A stretch of DNA of 33,951 nucleotides, taken from the NCBI GenBank assembly GCA_025361365.1, contig JANYAM010000030.1:1-33951 (forward strand), given 5' to 3'. Position 1 is the first letter of the stretch; each line of letters starts with the position of its first letter. The notes below the pieces were generated by a model. That model did no database searches, was not told the DNA's origin, and worked only from the letters and a program-made list of their open reading frames with translations. Shown one piece after another: positions 6,577 through 15,605 of this stretch. The position numbers and the translations under genes are program-made. Source of the DNA: Opitutus sp. (GTDB lineage: Bacteria > Verrucomicrobiota > Verrucomicrobiia > Opitutales > Opitutaceae).

Positions 6577-7767
6577 TTATTCGACGATCTCGGTCACGCG
6601 GCCGGCACCGATGGTGCGGCCACCCTCGCGGATGGCGAACTTCTGGGTCTTCTCCATGGCGATCGGCACGATCAGGTCGATGTCGACGGCGATGTTGTCG
6701 CCCGGCATGATCATCTCCACGCCCTTCGGCAGGTTGACGACGCCGGTCACGTCCGTGGTGCGGAAGTAGAACTGGGGACGATAGCCGTTGAAGAACGGCG
6801 TGTGGCGGCCACCCTCGTCCTTCGAGAGGACGTAGATCTCGGCCTTGGCCTTCTTGTGCGGCTTGATGGACTTCGGGGCGGCGATAACCTGGCCGCGCTC
6901 GATGCCTTCCTTTTCAATACCGCGGAGCAGGATGCCGACGTTGTCGCCCGCCTGGCCCTGATCGAGGAGCTTGCGGAACATCTCGATGCCGGTGACGACA
7001 GTCGTGGTCGTGTCCTTGAGGCCGACGATCTCGACGGTGTCGTTGAGCTTGCAGATGCCGCGCTCGATACGACCGGTGGCGACGGTGCCGCGGCCGGTGA
7101 TCGAGAAGACGTCCTCGACGGACATCAGGAAGGGCTTGTCGAGCTCGCGCAGCGGCTCGGCGATCTCGCTGTCGAGAGCCTCCATCAGCGCCTGAATGGC
7201 GGCCAAGCCCTCGGGCTTGCCCTCGAGGGCGGCGGTGGCGGAACCCCGGATGATCACGGCGGCCTTGCCGTCGAATTGATACTTGGTGAGGAGATCGCGG
7301 ATTTCCTCTTCGACGAGCTCGATGAGGTCCTTGTCGTCGATGAGGTCGACCTTGTTCAGGAAGACGACCAGCTTCGGCACGCCAACCTGGCGGGCCAGGA
7401 GGATGTGCTCGCGGGTCTGCGGCATCGGGCCGTCAGCGGCGGAGACCACGAGGATACCACCGTCCATCTGGGCGGCACCGGTGATCATGTTCTTGACGAA
7501 GTCGGCGTGGCCGGGGCAGTCGACGTGCGCGTAGTGGCGCTTGTCGGACTCATACTCCACGTGGGCGACCGAGATCGTGACGATCTTGGAGGCGTCACGC
7601 ACGGTGCCGCCCTTGGCGATGTCCGCGTAAGTCTTGACCTCAGCGAGACCCTTGCGGGCCTGCGCGGAGAGAATCGCGGTCGTCAGGGTCGTCTTGCCGT
7701 GATCGACGTGACCGATGGTGCCGACATTGACGTGCGGCTTTTTGCGTTCGAACGTTCCTTTAGCCAT
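6577..7767 (-). CDS. tuf: Elongation factor Tu
   Basis: A 396-residue translational GTPase that delivers aminoacyl-tRNA to the ribosome. The P-loop GHVDHGKT is at 19-26, DCPGHADF is at 83-90 with the catalytic His at 87, and NKVD is at 138-141. Domains 2 and 3 follow (about 205 to the end, with [13 protein letters not shown] and [15 protein letters not shown]). Switch I is atypical. Residues 51-65 read [15 protein letters not shown] where most bacteria have a sequence ending in RGITI. The Mg-binding Thr is kept (Thr64). The frame is intact on both sides, so this is not a frameshift. It lies between tRNA-Thr and tRNA-Trp. Confidence 0.98.
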
Positions 7768-8007: not shown

Positions 8008-8739
8008 CTACGGCCCCACTAACACGCGGTAGCGCCCGGGATTCAGGCGTTCGCCCACGCGGAGGGTTTTTACAAGATAGGATCGGAAGAAAGCATCTAC
8101 ATCGTCCCACCCCGACCCGCTCGTCAGGACCGGCTCCCCGACCACTCCACCGCTGCCGACCAAGACCACAAATTCCATCGGGGCGTAATCCAAGCGCGGC
8201 GGCAAAAATCCATTAAGAGCCTGCACCACAATGGGTTTGCTGTCCTTAAAATTCCTAATTTCCAAGAAAACGACCCGGGCGGGCAGAGGCGGCCGGGCGA
8301 TGTCGACCTGCCCAAAACCAGCGAATGGCGCCTCGTTGCCCTGGGCGAGCACATCCGACAGTTTTTCCGGCGCGGGCGTGGATTCGGCGCCATAGAGCTT
8401 CAGCTTCTGATCGGCAAAGGTCATGACCGGGTCAAAACTGCCGAAAACCTGCCCCGGCTGCCGGCGCAGCCGGACCGGTAACGGCCGCTGGCCGTAATTC
8501 CATTCTGTCGGGAAAAACAAGGGCCGCGGGTCGAACAAATCCGCCCGCTCCCGCAAAATCTGGTCGGTCGTGCCCTGACCCACGCCCGTAAGCTGCACAA
8601 ACGGATGTTGAGCGGCAGGCGCCGGGACCACGGCGGGTGGCGTGGCCCGTGTCCAACTCCACCACGCGCCGGTCACACCTAACGCGCACCCCAGCGCGAC
8701 CCAAACGCGCCGCTTCACTTCGATCGTTCCGATGCGCAC
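8008..8739 (-). CDS. TonB-like energy transducer protein
   Basis: A 243-residue protein with an N-terminal membrane anchor (about 12-29) and the rest probably periplasmic. The last 55 residues (about 187-241) resemble the TonB C-terminal domain. They contain EFVVLVGSGGVVGEPVLTSG, then an acidic helix WDDVDAFFRSYLVKTL, and end in GRYRVLVG. The Pro-rich linker of classical TonB is missing; the middle (about 45-180) is unfamiliar. A GTG start is preferred because AGGAGG lies 5 bases before it. It is the last gene of an operon after ExbB- and ExbD-like genes, which supports the TonB-like reading. The substrate or receptor served cannot be told from the sequence. Confidence 0.6.
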   Translation of the reverse strand: MRIGTIEVKRRVWVALGCALGVTGAWWSWTRATPPAVVPAPAAQHPFVQLTGVGQGTTDQILRERADLFDPRPLFFPTEWNYGQRPLPVRLRRQPGQVFGSFDPVMTFADQKLKLYGAESTPAPEKLSDVLAQGNEAPFAGFGQVDIARPPLPARVVFLEIRNFKDSKPIVVQALNGFLPPRLDYAPMEFVVLVGSGGVVGEPVLTSGSGWDDVDAFFRSYLVKTLRVGERLNPGRYRVLVGP

Positions 8740-8744
8740 AAAGA

Positions 8745-8750
8745 CCTCCT
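8745..8750 (-). promoter_or_regulatory. Perfect Shine-Dalgarno deciding the GTG start of the TonB-like gene
   Basis: AGGAGG lies 5 nt upstream of the GTG at 8739 and overlaps the end of the ExbD-like gene. It is the strongest ribosome binding site seen in this region, where most genes lack one. It fixes the start and suggests translational coupling. Confidence 0.7.
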
Positions 8751-9189
8751 ATTTCTGCGGGCTGTCCGGTGCCGGCTGGTTGCCGCCCAAAAGCATCCTC
8801 GAAAAACCCGCCGACGCCGCCATGGCGCCCAAGTCCGCGAGCGCCTGCGCCGACACCTGCTTGTCCGCGTTCACCTGCAGCACGGAGCCGGGGTATTTTT
8901 TAGCGTAGCTCTCCATGTGGCCGCGCAGCTCGACCAGGGTATACATGCCACCGTCAAACAGGATCACATTGTCCCGGCGATAACTGATGACGACTGACGT
9001 GGGCACCAAAGCAACCGAGGCTGGCTCAACCACCGGCAGCTCGACCAACAAACCCGGCGCCAGCACGAAGCGCGATCCCAGCAGGTCGAAAAACAGCACG
9101 ATCAGCCCGACGTTCACCCACGCGACGAAATTCAGGTCGCGCGGCGGCGGACTCATCCGCGATTCCAGGTCGAGCGGTCGCGTGATCAT
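8749..9189 (-). CDS. ExbD/TolR-like biopolymer transport protein
   Basis: A 146-residue single-pass protein with a short cytoplasmic N-terminus, a membrane helix at about 20-40 and a periplasmic domain. It aligns with ExbD over the helix: NFVAWVNVGLIVLFFDLLG against the usual pattern with a P-F-I-D-V core. The essential proton-carrying Asp of that pattern (Asp25 in E. coli ExbD) is replaced by Asn26. A different Asp occurs at position 35, deeper in the helix. The periplasmic part keeps ExbD features, including an LVELP segment and a C-terminal LQVNADKQVSAQALADLGAM stretch. Its ATG overlaps the ExbB-like stop by 4 nt, so the two are translationally coupled. Confidence 0.8.
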   Translation of the reverse strand: MITRPLDLESRMSPPPRDLNFVAWVNVGLIVLFFDLLGSRFVLAPGLLVELPVVEPASVALVPTSVVISYRRDNVILFDGGMYTLVELRGHMESYAKKYPGSVLQVNADKQVSAQALADLGAMAASAGFSRMLLGGNQPAPDSPQK

Positions 9190-9830
9190 TTTTTCTCCCC
9201 GGCGTCGTGGCGGTATTCACGCAGCAAAAAGCGCATGAGCTCGCTGCCCGCCCACTCCATGTCCTGCACGAGCGCGCGGACCCGGCCCGTGAGGAAATGC
9301 CGCGCGAGGTGCGCCGGGATCGCCACGGCCACGCCGGCTGCCGCCGTGAGCAGCGCCTCCCACATGCCGCCGGCCAGCACGGCCGGCGTCGCGTAGTTGC
9401 CGCCCTGGTTGAAGAGCCAGAAGGTCTTGATCATCCCGAGGAGCGTGCCCAGCAGGCCGAACAACGGCGCGATCTGCGCGATGGCTGCGAGCGCGCTGAT
9501 GCGCCGCTCGAGCACCGGAAGCTCCACGAGGGCCGCTTCCTGGATGGCGAAGCGCATCGCCTGCTCGTCGTCCGTGGCGTGGCGCAGCCCGGCCTTCACG
9601 ACCTTGGCCACCGGCCCGGGCGTTTCCTCACACAGGGTCAGGGCCTCCATCAACCGCTGCTTCTGCAGCAGGTTCTTGATGCCGCCAAGGAATTCCGTCG
9701 AGCGGATCTGCCCGCGGTGCAGGAACAGCGCGCGCTCGATGAAGAGCACGATCGCCGCCAGCCCGAGCAGGATGAGCAGCCACATCACCGGGCCGCCCTT
9801 GGCGAAGACGTTGTAACTGAAAACCGTCAT
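9186..9830 (-). CDS. ExbB/TolQ/MotA-family proton channel protein
   Basis: A 214-residue inner-membrane protein with three membrane helices (about 14-32, 115-138 and 153-175), the ExbB/TolQ topology. It keeps APLFGLLGTLLGMIKTF (121-137) in helix 2 and MWEALLTAAAGVAVAIPAHL (156-175) in helix 3. The helix-3 Glu is retained (Glu158). The Thr that corresponds to E. coli ExbB Thr181 is Ala163; a Thr sits one residue earlier (162). It would form the motor with the overlapping ExbD-like protein. Family membership is clear. Which of the TonB, Tol or other systems it powers is not, although the downstream TonB-like gene favours TonB-type transport. Confidence 0.9.
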   Translation of the reverse strand: MTVFSYNVFAKGGPVMWLLILLGLAAIVLFIERALFLHRGQIRSTEFLGGIKNLLQKQRLMEALTLCEETPGPVAKVVKAGLRHATDDEQAMRFAIQEAALVELPVLERRISALAAIAQIAPLFGLLGTLLGMIKTFWLFNQGGNYATPAVLAGGMWEALLTAAAGVAVAIPAHLARHFLTGRVRALVQDMEWAGSELMRFLLREYRHDAGEKK

Positions 9831-9882: not shown

Positions 9883-12489
9883 TCACGGCTTGGTCCCTCC
9901 CGCCGCGCCGAACCGCGCGAGCTTGGCCTGCGCCTGCGCCGCGCCGGCGAGCTTGTAGTCCACGATCAACTGGTAGGCGTGGCGCGCCTCGTCGAGCCGG
10001 CCGGCATCCTCGTGGAGCTGGCCGAGCTCGAGCAGCGCGCGGGTAATCCAATAGCGCCCCGTCGCGCCGAGCTTCGCCGCCTGCGCCGGGTCGAGCAGGA
10101 ACGCATCCACCACTGACCAGAATACGGTCTGCGCTTTGGCGGGTTGCGCGCGCTTGGCCAGGGCGTAGCCCCATTTGTAGCCCGCCTCGGCGCGCAAGTC
10201 GACCGGTGCCGACGGCAGGTCACGCAGCCGCTCGAAGATCGTCGCGGCGCTCTCGTAGTTCACCACGCTGTTGGTGCCCTGCGCGAAGAGGCTGTCGGCC
10301 AGCGCGAGCTGCGCGAGCAACACATCCGGATGCAGGCTGTAGTTGTAGATGAGATCGTCATACACCTGCCGGGCCTGCGGGAAGAAGTTCAGTTTCCGCA
10401 GCAGGTTGCCCTGCTTCAGGCGCGCATAAAACACCAGTTCGTCCCGCGGGTAGGTCTTGATCAAGGTCTCGAGCAGCTTGTTGGCTTCCTCGAGTTGCCG
10501 GTCGAGCCCCTGAAGCTCCAGGTTGAGTGCCGCCTCATACAGCGCCAGCGGGGCGTATTCGCTCTGCCGGTATTCCGGCGTGTCCACGAAACTGATGAGC
10601 ACGCGCTGCGCCCCGGCCATGTCGCCGCGTTGCGTCAGGTGACTGGCCTGCACCAGATAGGAATACTGGGCGGCGGCGGTGGTGTGATAATCCGCGCGCA
10701 GCTTGTCGAGCAGCGCCATGCCCTCGGCATCGCGGCCGAGCGCGAGCAGCGCCTGGGCTTTCAAGAGTTGCGCCGTGCTGGTGACATTGACGCGAAGCAC
10801 CTCCTCGAGCGCCCCGCCCTTTTGCAGCCGCGCCAGCAATTCGTCCGCCTGCCGCAGCGCCGTCTCGGGCTGGCCGTTGTCGAACGAGAGCTTGGCCCGC
10901 AGCCACATCAGCCGGATGCGCAATTCCTCCGGCACGCCCTGGGCGCCGCCCGCCAGCAACCGCTCCACCCGGGCCTGGGCCGCCGCCGCCTGGCCGTGCA
11001 CCTGCATCTCCTTGACCAGGTTCCATTCCGCCTGCCAGCGGCTCACCGCGTCGAAGCCCGGTGCCGCAGCGGATTCATCCAGCTGCCTGGCCGCCGCGTC
11101 GAGCTGATCCGCCCGGATGTCCGAAAGGACACGTTGGAAAATCAGCGTGCCCGCCGGGACCACGGCCGGCAGCTCGTGCAGCGCCGCCGCATAGGCGTCG
11201 GCCGCATTCTTGTAATCTTCCGAGCGGAAAAACGCCTCGGCGAGCAGCACGCCGAGCTCGGCATGCTCCCGCCCCTCGGGGAGGGCCGCGCGCAGTTGCA
11301 CGGCAACGTCTGCCGCCGAGCGGTAGCGCTTCAAGTCCCACGCCACCGCCAGGCGCACGCCCAGCGCCTTGGCCTTCAGGGTCGAGCCGGGATAGCGCTC
11401 GAGCAGCGCCCGGGCATCCTCTTCCGCCGGGGCATAGTCCTGGTCGAGCAACGCGGTCTGCGCCCGGGCCAGGATCAGGTCCTCGATGATCGGGTGCTGC
11501 GTGGGCGCGATAATGAGATCACTCAGGTCGCGCCGCAGCTGCAGGCGCTCCGCCGGCGTCTTCGCGCCGCGCGCCAGCAGTTGCAAAGCCAGGCGCTGCG
11601 TGTCCGGCCGCTGACCGTCGCGCAGCAGCTGCCGGAAGGCTTGCCGGCCCGCCACGCTGCCTTCCCCGGCGATGAGGCCCAGCATCAGGCCGAGCTGGTC
11701 GGCGGCATCGCGCTCCGTCGGTGGCAGCACGGACAACTGGCGCTGCAGCACCGCCTGCGCCTCCGCGGCCCGGCCGAGGCCGGCCAGCGCCGCCGCGTAG
11801 GTGCGCACGTAGGTGTAGCCGGTGCGCTGGCCTTGGAAACGTTCCATGTTGCCGCGCAGGGTCGCGAGCTGGGCATCGTTGGCCGGCACCAGGCGCAGCC
11901 GCGACTGTTCCTGGCCGAGAGTAAAGCGCGCGCGCTGCAGGTCCGAGACCGCAGCCCGCCCCGCCTGGTCATAAAGGTTGTTCGCCGGCGCGATCTCGCC
12001 CTCCGCATCGGCGACGCTGGCCTGCAGGAAGAGCCACCAGCCGCGATCAGCCACCGGCAGGTCATCGGCCTTGCCCGCCGCCAGCGCGGCCTTGGCCGCC
12101 GCAGTGCGCCGGGCCGTCACGGCGATGAGACCCACGCGGAGCTGATAGGGGGTATTGCGCGGGCCGTCGTAGCCTTGCAGCGCGCTTTCCGCCGCCGGGA
12201 GGCCGCCGGCATCCAGCAGGGCCGTCACCAGCGAGAGGGTCACCCGCTGCCTCGTCTCGGCCGGCAGCGCCGGGTCGCGCAGCAGTTCGCGGAAGCCCGC
12301 GGCCGCCGTCGCGGGGAAGCCCGCCTGCAGCGCGGCGTTGGCCCGTCCCTCGGCCACGATCCAGCCGCCCGGCACCAGCTGGACCGTGGCCGAGTCGGAG
12401 ACCAGCGGACTCGGCCCGGCCACCTGGGCTGCGAGTCGCGCGGCGGCGAGTGACAGCAGAAGCAAAAGACGGCGCGCCAACTTCATCAT
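9883..12489 (-). CDS. Secreted tetratricopeptide-repeat protein
   Basis: An 868-residue protein with a signal peptide (MKLARRLLLLLSLAAARLAA, cleavage likely near AAQ). It is then almost entirely helical repeats rich in Ala, Leu, Arg and Gln. Many 34-residue TPR-like units are visible, for example LLERYPGSTLKAKALGVRLA, ELGVLLAEAFFRSEDYKNAA and ELVFYARLKQGNLLRKLNFF. Two adjacent ATGs at 12489 and 12486 give the likely start; the open frame upstream lacks a signal peptide. It ends 52 bp before the ExbB-like gene and reads the same way, so it is probably first in the operon. A periplasmic scaffold for the motor complex is plausible but inferred. Confidence 0.8.
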   Translation of the reverse strand: MMKLARRLLLLLSLAAARLAAQVAGPSPLVSDSATVQLVPGGWIVAEGRANAALQAGFPATAAAGFRELLRDPALPAETRQRVTLSLVTALLDAGGLPAAESALQGYDGPRNTPYQLRVGLIAVTARRTAAAKAALAAGKADDLPVADRGWWLFLQASVADAEGEIAPANNLYDQAGRAAVSDLQRARFTLGQEQSRLRLVPANDAQLATLRGNMERFQGQRTGYTYVRTYAAALAGLGRAAEAQAVLQRQLSVLPPTERDAADQLGLMLGLIAGEGSVAGRQAFRQLLRDGQRPDTQRLALQLLARGAKTPAERLQLRRDLSDLIIAPTQHPIIEDLILARAQTALLDQDYAPAEEDARALLERYPGSTLKAKALGVRLAVAWDLKRYRSAADVAVQLRAALPEGREHAELGVLLAEAFFRSEDYKNAADAYAAALHELPAVVPAGTLIFQRVLSDIRADQLDAAARQLDESAAAPGFDAVSRWQAEWNLVKEMQVHGQAAAAQARVERLLAGGAQGVPEELRIRLMWLRAKLSFDNGQPETALRQADELLARLQKGGALEEVLRVNVTSTAQLLKAQALLALGRDAEGMALLDKLRADYHTTAAAQYSYLVQASHLTQRGDMAGAQRVLISFVDTPEYRQSEYAPLALYEAALNLELQGLDRQLEEANKLLETLIKTYPRDELVFYARLKQGNLLRKLNFFPQARQVYDDLIYNYSLHPDVLLAQLALADSLFAQGTNSVVNYESAATIFERLRDLPSAPVDLRAEAGYKWGYALAKRAQPAKAQTVFWSVVDAFLLDPAQAAKLGATGRYWITRALLELGQLHEDAGRLDEARHAYQLIVDYKLAGAAQAQAKLARFGAAGGTKP

Positions 12490-12643
12490 GAATGGCTTGA
12501 GCGTGCAGCCCCGGCCCCGGGTGGCAAGCCTCGGGCGGCGGCGGATCGGTTGAAATTCTCCCCCGCCGTGTAACGGAAAACTTCTCGCGCCACCCGGTGG
12601 CATCCGGCAACCTGCCTGCCGTTAGCTCCAACCCAACCACCCT

Positions 12644-13246
12644 ATGAGTGCTGTCCTGATTGTCCTCGGAGTCCTGCTCCTTGTCGCTGTTGTCCTCGGC
12701 CTGTGGGTCGCGGGCATCTACAACTCGCTCGTCACCCTGCGCAACCGTTTCAAAAACGCCTTCGCCCAGATCGACGTCCAGCTCAAGCGCCGCTACGACC
12801 TCATCCCCAACCTCGTCGAGGTCGCCAAGGGTTACATGAAGCATGAGAGCGGCACGCTCGAGGCCGTCATCAAGGCCCGCAACGTGGCCTACGCCGCCTC
12901 CCAGACCGCCGCCGCCAATCCCGCCGACGCCGGCGCGATGAAGAACCTCCTCGGCGCCGAGTCCGGCCTCGCCGGCGCGATGTCCCGCCTCATGGTCGTC
13001 TCCGAGCAATACCCCGACCTCAAGGCCAACCAGAACATGATGCAGCTCACCGAGGAGATGACCTCCACGGAGAACAAGATCTCGTTCGCCCGGCAGGCCT
13101 ACAACGACTCGGTCATGGTCTACAACACGACCCGCGAGTCCTTCCCGACCAACGTCCTCGCCGGCATGTTCAACTTCGCCGAGGCTCAGCTGTTCCAGAT
13201 CGACAACGCCGCGGAGCGCGCCGCCCCGCAGGTCAAGTTCACCTGA
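12644..13246 (+). CDS. lemA: LemA family protein
   Basis: A 200-residue protein with an N-terminal membrane helix (about 3-24) and a long helical domain. The family hallmark [20 protein letters not shown] (about 38-57) is followed by [18 protein letters not shown]. The C-terminal part has [20 protein letters not shown]. LemA proteins are membrane-anchored helical bundles of unclear function, often found beside M48 proteases, as here. It is divergent from the TPR operon and 2 bp before the YbjQ-family gene, so it probably leads a three-gene operon. Confidence 0.95.
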
Positions 13247-13248
13247 GC

Positions 13249-13572
13249 ATGCACAACACGACCAACCCTTCCCTCGCCGGCCAGCGCGTCGTCCGGGAAC
13301 TCGGCACGGTGCGCGGCATCGTCGTCCGCTCGCGCTCGGTCATCGGCAACATCGGCGCCAGCATCCAGACGATCTTCGGCGGCGACATCACGCTCTACAC
13401 CGAGCTCTGCGAGCACGCCCGCCAGGACGCCTATGAGCGCATGTGCGCCCACGCCGCCGCGCTGGGGGCCAACGCCATCATCGGCCTCCGCTACGATGCC
13501 ACCGAGATCGGCGCGGGTATCACCGAGGTGCTTTGCTACGGCACGGCCGTCATCGTCGAGCCGACCGGCTAG
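13249..13572 (+). CDS. YbjQ/UPF0145 (DUF74) family protein
   Basis: A 107-residue protein matching the YbjQ family. It contains [20 protein letters not shown], then a helix with [20 protein letters not shown], and finishes with [13 protein letters not shown]. Members form pentameric rings and have no settled biochemical role. The size is normal. It starts 2 bp after lemA and ends 17 bp before the M48 protease, so it sits inside a tight operon and presumably acts with them. Confidence 0.92.
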
Positions 13573-13589
13573 AAACCCCTGTCGCGGGC

Positions 13590-15605
13590 ATGGATTTTTT
13601 CGAGGCCCAGGAGCGCGCCCGGAAACGAACCCACCGGCTCGTGATGCTTTTCGTGCTCGCCGTGCTGGGCACGGTGCTGGCCGGCTACGTCGCCAGCTGG
13701 CTGGTCCTGAACAATGCGGGCGCCTACCAGGGCTACACCCGGGACCGCACCGGCCGGCGCGTTTACCGGGAAGCCTCGGCTCCCCGGCCGATTTTTGATC
13801 CGAAGCTTTTCCTCCTCGTCACGGGCGGCACCCTCGCCGTGGTCGGCGGGGCCTCTCTCTACAAGTGGTCGCAGATGCGGGAAGGCGGCTCCGCCATCGC
13901 GGAAATGGCGGGCGGGCGGCTCGTCGACCTCAAGACCACCGACCTGCGCGAGCGCAAGCTGCTCAATGTCGTCGAGGAGATGTCCATCGCCTCCGGCATC
14001 CCCATGCCCGCCGTCTATGTGCTGGAGGACGAGCCGGGGCTCAACGCCTTCGCCGCCGGCCTGACCACGAGCGACGCCGCGGTGACCGTCACCCGCGGCA
14101 CGCTCGACAAACTCTCCCGCGACGAGTTGCAGGGCGTCATCGCCCACGAGTTCAGTCACATCCTCAATGGCGACATGCGGCTCAACGTGCGCATCACCGC
14201 CATCGTCTTCGGCATCCTGGTCATCGGCCTGCTGGGCCGCGGTATCCTGCAATCCCTCGGGCGCGCGCGGGTCAGCAGCGGCGACAGCAAGAAGGGCGGC
14301 GGCCTGCCCGTGCTCCTCGCGGTCGGCCTCGCGCTGATGATCATCGGCTACGTCGGGTATTTCTTCGGCCGCCTGATCCAGGCCGCGGTGTCCCGCCAGC
14401 GCGAGTTCCTTGCCGACGCCTCCGCCGTGCAGTTCACCCGCAACCCGGGCGGCATCACCGGCGCGCTGAAAAAGATCGGCGGCTACGCGCTCGGCGGCAA
14501 CGTCATCGGCGCGAACACCGCCGAGCTCGGCCACTTCTTCTTCGCCCAGGCGTTCAAGTCCAACTTCGGCGGCCTCTGGGCGACGCACCCGCCGCTCGAC
14601 GAGCGCATCCGCGCGGTCGACCCGACGTGGGACGGCAAGCTCTTCGAGCCCGAGCAGGTCGTGGACATCGCCCATGAATCCTCGGCCGTCGCCGGCTTCG
14701 GCGGGGGCCAGCGTTTTGGCACCGACGAGACCCTGCGGCGCGTGCACGAGGCCCAGCCCGACCTCCCCCGCCCCCGCACCTTCGTCAGCGTGCCATTCAA
14801 GCCCGTCAAGATCGTCGCCGACATCGGCGCTCTCACCGAGTCGCATTTCCGCAATGCCCAGCTGCTGCTCGACACGATCCCCACCCGCCTGCGCGAGTCC
14901 ACCCGCGATACCGCCGCGGCGCAGGTGCTCGTCTACGGTTTGCTGCTCAACGGCGACAAGGCCGCGCGCGACGTGCAGCAGGCTCTCGTAGCCCAGCACG
15001 CCGGCCCGGAAGCCGCCACCGCCCTCGCCGCGCAGCGCTCCGCGCTCAGCGTGCTCGACCCCGCCGCGCGGCTGCCGCTGCTGCAACTTTCCCTGCCTGC
15101 ACTCCGGTCGCTCGACGGCGCCGCCCTCGACCGCTTTTTCACGACGCTCGACGAACTCGTCCACGCCGACCAGCAGGTCACCCCCTTCGAGTATGCCGTG
15201 CAGAAGATGCTGCTGCACCAGCTGCAACTGGCGCAGAAACCCGCCGGGCGCGTGTTATACGACTCGTTCGACGGCCTGCGGGGCGAGATCGCCGTCATTC
15301 TCTCTTCCCTGGCTCATCTCAGTCCCAAGGATTCCGCCGCCGCCTTTGCCGAGGGCGCCGCGCAGATTCCCGTCATCCGCGACCAGCTCGCACTTCTCCC
15401 GCCGGCCGAGAGCGGCCTGGAACAGGTGGACGCCGCGCTGGACAAGCTCGCGCTGGCCAGCCTCCCCATCAAACAGCGCCTTCTGGTGGCCGCCGGCCAC
15501 GTCATCGCCAGCGACGGCACGGTCAGCGTGGAGGAAGGCGAACTCTACCGGGCCTTCGCCGCCACGCTGGACTGCCCGATGCCCACCCTGGGCCAGGCGG
15601 CGTGA
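13590..15605 (+). CDS. M48 family membrane zinc metalloprotease with TerB-like C-terminus
   Basis: A 671-residue protein. Two helices lie near the N-terminus (about 16-41 and 72-91). A peptidase M48 domain follows (about 120-345) with the zinc motif HEFSH at 186-190 and the third-ligand region REFLADASAVQFTRNP (Glu272). Two more helices lie between them (about 202-220 and 239-262). The domain resembles HtpX/Ste24-type membrane proteases. The C-terminal 300 residues are helical. They contain two stretches with a TerB-like look, DELVHADQQVTPFEYAVQKM and VIASDGTVSVEEGELYRAF. The ATG at 13590 is chosen because the upstream open frame overlaps the YbjQ gene. A role in membrane protein quality control is likely from the family. 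The substrate is unknown. Confidence 0.9.
   Translation: MDFFEAQERARKRTHRLVMLFVLAVLGTVLAGYVASWLVLNNAGAYQGYTRDRTGRRVYREASAPRPIFDPKLFLLVTGGTLAVVGGASLYKWSQMREGGSAIAEMAGGRLVDLKTTDLRERKLLNVVEEMSIASGIPMPAVYVLEDEPGLNAFAAGLTTSDAAVTVTRGTLDKLSRDELQGVIAHEFSHILNGDMRLNVRITAIVFGILVIGLLGRGILQSLGRARVSSGDSKKGGGLPVLLAVGLALMIIGYVGYFFGRLIQAAVSRQREFLADASAVQFTRNPGGITGALKKIGGYALGGNVIGANTAELGHFFFAQAFKSNFGGLWATHPPLDERIRAVDPTWDGKLFEPEQVVDIAHESSAVAGFGGGQRFGTDETLRRVHEAQPDLPRPRTFVSVPFKPVKIVADIGALTESHFRNAQLLLDTIPTRLRESTRDTAAAQVLVYGLLLNGDKAARDVQQALVAQHAGPEAATALAAQRSALSVLDPAARLPLLQLSLPALRSLDGAALDRFFTTLDELVHADQQVTPFEYAVQKMLLHQLQLAQKPAGRVLYDSFDGLRGEIAVILSSLAHLSPKDSAAAFAEGAAQIPVIRDQLALLPPAESGLEQVDAALDKLALASLPIKQRLLVAAGHVIASDGTVSVEEGELYRAFAATLDCPMPTLGQAA

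Follow-up and report, generated by a model that had tools for sequence, protein, structure and literature searches.

An ExbB-ExbD pair of Opitutus sp. carries Asn at the position of the proton-binding Asp of ExbD and Ala at the position of E. coli ExbB Thr181, and the same Asn is nearly fixed in the Opitutaceae clade to which the pair belongs. The genes lie in a stretch of 33,951 nucleotides, referred to here as the window. Judged from sequence, the complex of ExbB, ExbD and a TonB/TolA-like protein would, with reasonable probability, no longer be a proton-driven motor, having been retained for another job as an envelope scaffold independent of the proton-motive force (PMF). By sequence the two proteins are members of the ExbB and ExbD families, and they depart at the residues tested from the proton-driven 5:2 motors (ExbBD, TolQR and MotAB). 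Motors of this class are usually defined by the Asp of ExbD, TolR and MotB.

The operon and its products

In a 3.56 Mb genome assembled in 297 contigs, the window makes up contig C21. It encodes an ExbB/TolQ-like protein of 214 aa (9186..9830, minus strand), scoring 97.7 bits against PF01618 (gathering score 22.9), and an ExbD/TolR-like protein of 146 aa (8749..9189, minus strand), scoring 37.2 bits against PF02472 (gathering score 25.4), in reading frames that share a 4-base overlap. The first gene of the operon encodes a large TPR protein (9883..12603, minus strand, 906 aa as an ORF), whose signal-peptide-like stretch from about residue 39, recognised by inspection, suggests a true start near 12489. 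The gene after exbD, orf3 (8008..8739, minus strand), encodes the TonB/TolA-like protein, and tuf (EF-Tu, 6577..7767, minus strand) is the first protein gene 3' of the operon. Along the minus strand the order is TPR gene, exbB, exbD, orf3, tRNA-Thr, tuf, tRNA-Trp, nusG and rplK, the protein names, including that of tuf, having been given by inspection. This arrangement is well conserved: exbB adjoins exbD in all 89 of the family loci first collected, a TPR match stands beside exbB in 87 of them (it is missing in L074 and L079), and the third gene is missing in one (L081). Among the larger loci of named relatives, which comprise Lacunisphaera, Oleiharenicola, Candidatus Didemnitutus and other Opitutaceae/Opitutia MAGs, the four genes occur together in 25 of 25 and are followed by tuf in 24, the exception (L126) having too little downstream sequence. 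Divergently from the operon start genes for a putative LemA-like and a putative M48-type metalloprotease-like protein (12644-15605, plus strand); the LemA-like gene is in the same place in 20 of the 25 named loci, the remaining five being short there.

The 243-aa product of orf3 matches nothing in Pfam or NCBIfam at E values of 1 or less and comprises a membrane helix (about residues 10-32), a linker and a C-terminal domain (about residues 157-242). Its AlphaFold model contains one N-terminal helix and a C-terminal domain mostly above pLDDT 90. The six top VIA-align matches of this model were TonB, TolA and HasB domains with modest Z scores (5.2 to 2.9, unrelated rows reaching at most 2.7), and Foldseek returned nothing at E 0.001. 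The N-terminal helix and the C-terminal fold are thus consistent with a TonB/TolA-like protein, at the level of a modest Z score. The TonB-type membrane His, within a Ser-His-Leu-Ser motif, is absent from the helix; passages of PMC12204202 describe this His as essential to the motor interactions of TolA and TonB.

Ion-path residues of ExbD and ExbB

Asn26 of the window ExbD (codon 9112-9114, minus strand) occupies the position of the proton-binding Asp, as the sequence-only reading had proposed. Asp stands in this column in the genome's remaining four ExbDs and in the Asp-bearing orthologues from the same operon. The register was settled by these Asp-bearing orthologues, since they share a similar SRFV-APG tail. 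A HMMER profile alignment to two solved ExbDs shifts the start of the helix, and that register was set aside; the best solved match to the ExbD profile was 7ajq ExbD (E 6e-9). A sequencing error, named beforehand as something that would overturn the claim, can be dismissed because Asn26 recurs in 94 of the 121 family rows with a letter there. The sequence-only reading had also offered Asp35 (codon 9085-9087) as a substitute proton route. This did not survive the comparison, as no aligned family or order row other than the window has Asp or Glu at position 35, and apart from Asp35 residues 21-45 contain no acidic residue in the Asp-less family rows. Asp20 was considered as a relocated acid and rejected: of the 96 Asp-less family rows 87 have Asp (or Glu) there, but so do the Asp-bearing relatives compared, and the window itself carries Asn (Asn20).

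In ExbB, Ala163 (codon 9342-9344, minus strand) lies at the position of E. coli Thr181. The earlier assignment is borne out by alignment to solved TolQ chains, in which Glu158, Thr162 and Ala163 of the window fall on Glu, Ala and Thr, so that Ala163 sits at the Thr. The adjacent Thr162 is retained, as are Thr129 and Glu158, which we take to be E. coli Thr148 and Glu176. Of the two ExbB threonines that face the Asp in the proton-driven 5:2 motor, Thr148 and Thr181, the window thus has the former, as Thr129, and Ala163 in place of the latter. Passages of PMC12204202 describe a ring of threonines around the Asp.

Distribution, phylogeny and selection

The window ExbD was matched in 188 of 200 family genomes, of which 121, including that of the window, were read, giving 122 rows (the window and 121 loci, from 121 genomes), 121 of them with a readable position 26. 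The residue is Asn in 94, Asp in 25, Ser in one and Ala in one. The remaining row (L231, genome G052) has no letter at the position and was left out of the family counts; its ExbD match spans query residues 1-48 only, at 67% identity, and this copy may be frameshifted. In the order, 126 genomes had a match, and the 55 loci read outside the family have Asp in 44, Asn in seven, and Thr, Ala, Ser and Leu in one each. A tree of 173 rows was built without the trait columns and without three loci that have no ExbB (L120, L161 and L176, also excluded from the class-level tree described below). The 96 Asp-less family rows formed one clade (SH-aLRT 99) beside a clade of the 25 Asp-bearing rows (99). 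The simplest account is a single loss of the Asp at the base of the larger family clade, with Asn retained thereafter in 94 of its 96 rows.

All four further ExbDs of the window genome bear the Asp, and the three neighbouring ExbBs carry Thr at the position of Thr181, as do the ExbBs of canonical paralogues in 31 of 31 loci with an ExbB. On another contig of this genome (G000, C17; L003/L004), an exbB-exbD-exbD-tonB-like operon contains two tandem Asp-bearing ExbDs.

The exbB, exbD and TonB-like genes are under purifying selection. Values of dN/dS were 0.10-0.45 in three pairs involving the window, 0.02-0.45 across 11 Asn-clade pairs, and 0.01-0.45 for the three genes when two Asp-clade pairs were added to these 11, with dS near saturation in several. 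The window ExbD gave the high-end values, 0.40 and 0.45, against L008 and L009. The open frames and the values for the window pairs uphold the earlier judgement that the genes are intact and their decay unlikely.

Changes in ExbB and in the TonB/TolA-like partner

Loss of the Thr181 equivalent comes repeatedly after loss of the Asp. Among family and order rows with an ExbB (L231 excluded), the Thr181 equivalent is Thr or Ser in 67 of 67 Asp-bearing rows vs 59 of 106 Asp-less rows. Counted on the tree by midpoint rooting and simple parsimony, on which all these branch counts rest, Thr/Ser at this position was neither lost nor regained on any Asp branch (branch lengths adding up to 46.9), against 15 such changes on Asp-less branches (59.6; p 1.7e-4). 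The corresponding numbers were 0 and 17 for Thr180 (p 5e-5) and 0 and 4 for Thr148 (p 0.1), the p values quoted being those of chosen Thr/Ser-or-not tests. A smaller first tree gave 0/14 changes for Thr181 and 0/16 for Thr180. When all ExbB columns with at least eight changes were scanned for an excess of change on Asp-less branches, position 166 came first, 162 third and 163 fourteenth, none of them persuasive once the number of columns had been corrected for, and an independent-pairs test of Asp against Thr181 was underpowered. Glu176 showed no link to the Asp state (10 changes on Asp and 8 on Asp-less branches) and is variable in canonical paralogues, and its coupling to the Asp was rejected; the Glu158 position is Gln in 63 of 96 Asp-less and 22 of 25 Asp-bearing family rows.

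Of the 96 Asp-less family rows, 13 have lost both hydroxyls of the Thr180/Thr181 pair, 60 retain one and 23 retain both. Thr129 is near-fixed (85 of 87 Asn rows). The notion that Asn26 and Ala163 constitute a joint pair held in part, the two not being fixed together: Asn is near-fixed in the clade (94 of 96), but position 163 is Thr or Ser in 53 and Ala, Val, Leu or Phe in 43 of the same 96 rows. ExbB His174 (window 9309-9311) is found in 85 of 96 Asp-less vs 2 of 25 Asp-bearing family rows.

The requirement for the second Thr is less strict than that for the Asp, as four distant Asp-bearing loci are without it. In these loci (L305, L306, L307 and L310), the ExbB partner of an Asp-bearing ExbD has Val where Thr181 would be, which departs from the textbook pathway in a second way and breaks a strict rule that the Asp needs Thr181.

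The membrane His of the TonB-like protein was scored on the family and order rows, 11 of which yielded no TonB-like gene. A mid-helix His is present in 24 of 24 scored Asp-bearing rows of the family and in 53 of 65 of family and order together; it was flagged in 2 of 96 Asp-less family rows and in 2 of 100 scored Asp-less rows of family and order, both off-centre by eye. Inspection of the tree places the change of the Asp and that of the His on one and the same Opitutaceae branch; only three supported independent pairs were available, too few for a test.

Class-level relatives and reduced genomes

At the level of the class we read 25 loci outside the order, drawn from 138 matching genomes, a count that includes the order. 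Position 26 is Asn in 16, Asp in six, Gly in two and Thr in one, a share of Asn biased upward because the loci were picked by their score to a profile of Asn rows. Against the subfamily profile, 22 of these loci have an ExbB scoring 175-246, and the other three, with a partial ExbB, score 50, 50 and 74 (at L295 and L296, the two with 50, roughly 2 kb separate the ExbB piece from exbD); the ExbBs of canonical paralogues reached at most 113 in one set of loci and 129 for one paralogue of another set. At the position of Thr181, all six Asp-bearing class-level loci and 16 of the 19 Asp-less ones have Thr or Ser. A tree of 118 rows with a canonical outgroup required 13 changes of Asp state; it used 24 Asp-less and 11 Asp-bearing family rows, most family rows being left out, and four long branches (L179, L183, L187 and L189) were dropped. 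The Asp has thus been lost recurrently, or lost and regained, within one ExbBD subfamily. Judged by eye, the helix of the protein encoded after exbD, TonB-like by position only, has a His in 15 of the 19 Asp-less class-level loci and in three of the six Asp-bearing ones, so that the Asp can go while the His stays. A rule that loss of the Asp goes with loss of the His is therefore true on the Opitutaceae branch and fails at class level.

Fourteen small genomes (0.7-1.1 Mb, from three families of the order) were picked by size, four of them already known to be Asp-less; further small genomes (among others G224, G232, G241, G255, G257, G281, G322, G347 and G355) lay outside this search of ExbD number. 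Thirteen of the 14 each yielded a single ExbD above the Pfam cut-off and a single ExbB, and G205 yielded neither; G339 has a second ExbD match, below the cut-off. Position 26 of the 13 ExbDs is Asn in eight, Ser in three, Ala in one and Cys in one, with no Asp. Scores against the subfamily profiles were 195-264 for ExbB and 92-149 for ExbD, except for L318, whose ExbB scored 122 near a contig end, and L331, with no ExbB on the locus. Values of dN/dS were 0.04-0.31 where dS was finite (ten pairs among 12 reduced genomes). These genomes are drift-prone and 68-95% complete, so absence from them is not proof, and their rows form long branches; even so, each of the 13 assemblies would need to have missed a canonical ExbD.

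Matches to PF03544 (TonB_C) and PF13103 (TonB_2) were found in none of the 13 genomes. Both profiles also miss the window's own TonB-like protein, and a diverged TonB-like partner encoded elsewhere in the reduced genomes is therefore possible. A TonB-dependent receptor barrel was found in one of the 13 and an OmpA domain in four. In six loci from genomes of 0.8-0.9 Mb (L335-L340; G223, G240, G282, G302, G227 and G270), the sole exbB-exbD appeared by inspection as a two-gene unit with no visible TPR or TonB-like neighbour, the contig of L338 ending directly after exbD. A gene named mutS-like by inspection lies 3' of exbD in G223 and G240.

Discussion

The sequence-only reading had left two outcomes for the window motor, another proton route or no proton movement, and the latter fits best. 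Asn26 would mimic a permanently protonated Asp, and the ExbD pair could therefore not run a protonation cycle within the ExbB ring. The ring and the periplasmic domain of ExbD may then constitute a static inner-membrane platform that would hold the TonB/TolA-like arm and the periplasmic TPR protein, serving passive tethering or organisation of the envelope without proton flow. In the reduced genomes just the ExbB-ExbD platform was seen. Across much of the family the complex is kept without the acidic residue regarded as essential for its power supply, and in some reduced relatives it is seemingly the sole such complex; a function independent of proton flow is therefore probable. Against a de-energised complex it may be said that the near-fixed Thr129 looks as if the geometry of the ring lumen still matters, that His174 could in principle be a new proton site, and that the losses of Asp and His are uncoupled outside the order.

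The same residue change as in the window is found in laboratory mutants: passages of PMC11658791 call ExbD(D25N), as well as TonB(H20A), inactive, and passages of PMC9389320 call MotB D22N protonation-mimetic. The window variant differs from the MotB and ExbD mutants in being natural, conserved, under selection and followed by relaxation of ExbB. Our searches of open-licence papers in PubMed Central turned up no ExbD that we recognised as a natural Asp-less form. With the Ton motor (ExbB-ExbD-TonB) the window shares both Pfam families, 7ajq ExbD as its best solved match and a downstream protein whose N-terminal helix and C-terminal domain are TonB/TolA-like, but it is without the proton-binding Asp, the Thr181 equivalent and the TonB-like membrane His, and it scores far below the NCBIfam equivalog cut-offs for ExbB and ExbD. 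Some features recall TolQ-TolR-TolA of the Tol-Pal system, since the window ExbB scores 74 bits with TolQ vs 44 with ExbB (both below cut-offs) and part of the TPR protein resembles YbgF/CpoB (51 bits, cut-off 90). However, no tolB or pal was seen in the operon, and the genome has on contig C32 a further exbB-exbD operon with a TolA-like gene, together with an OmpA-domain match. The TPR-tolQ-tolR-tolR-vWA clusters of PVC bacteria, as presented in passages of PMC12204202, likewise bring together a TPR gene, a tolQ-like gene and a membrane-anchored transducer, but the window has one exbD rather than two and a TonB/TolA-like instead of a vWA C-terminal domain; those passages mention no Asp-less variant.

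Other explanations have to be weighed against loss of proton drive. The Asn26 ExbD might act as a modulating subunit in mixed complexes, with an Asp-bearing ExbD from another operon supplying the proton site. The four Asp-bearing ExbDs of the window genome would provide such partners, and C17 carries a tandem exbD pair. We nevertheless consider this unlikely, given that every canonical exbD locus of the genome has its own exbB and that in the 13 reduced genomes no second ExbD exceeds the cut-off. The ExbB of the Asp-less members is moreover relaxed at Thr180/Thr181, which an Asp-bearing partner within that ring should need, an argument tempered by the four loci with Val. Continued use of the PMF through another titratable group, such as Glu158 or a new His174 of ExbB, seems a little less likely still. 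The enrichment of His174 in Asp-less rows and the retention of Glu158 in the window would favour it, but the Glu158 position is mostly Gln in Asp-less and Asp-bearing family rows alike, Asp35 is unique to the window, and His174 would lie 11 residues, or about three turns, cytoplasm-ward of position 163 and not mid-membrane.

That the gene pair is decaying, or that the Asn is an assembly or sequencing error, is very improbable. Some Asp-less lineages do have reduced genomes and fast-evolving copies, and the residue of L231 is unreadable; set against this are the recurrence of Asn across the family, the open frames, dN/dS below 0.5 in the pairs tested, and a conserved operon and synteny. We thus retain, as the reading that these comparisons favour, a complex that would have given up proton drive and been kept as a scaffold.

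Extended beyond the window, the data raise the prospect, which we put at somewhat below even, that a Verrucomicrobiota ExbB-ExbD subfamily has repeatedly lost its Asp and persists as a PMF-independent scaffold, being the sole ExbBD kept in the reduced genomes of the order, and that the ring thus has a second, energy-independent function. A large natural Asp-less group under selection would show that such rings can be used apart from proton-driven motion. It would also offer a natural series of mutants in which to follow which residues relax once the Asp is lost, as well as candidate minimal ExbBD pairs.
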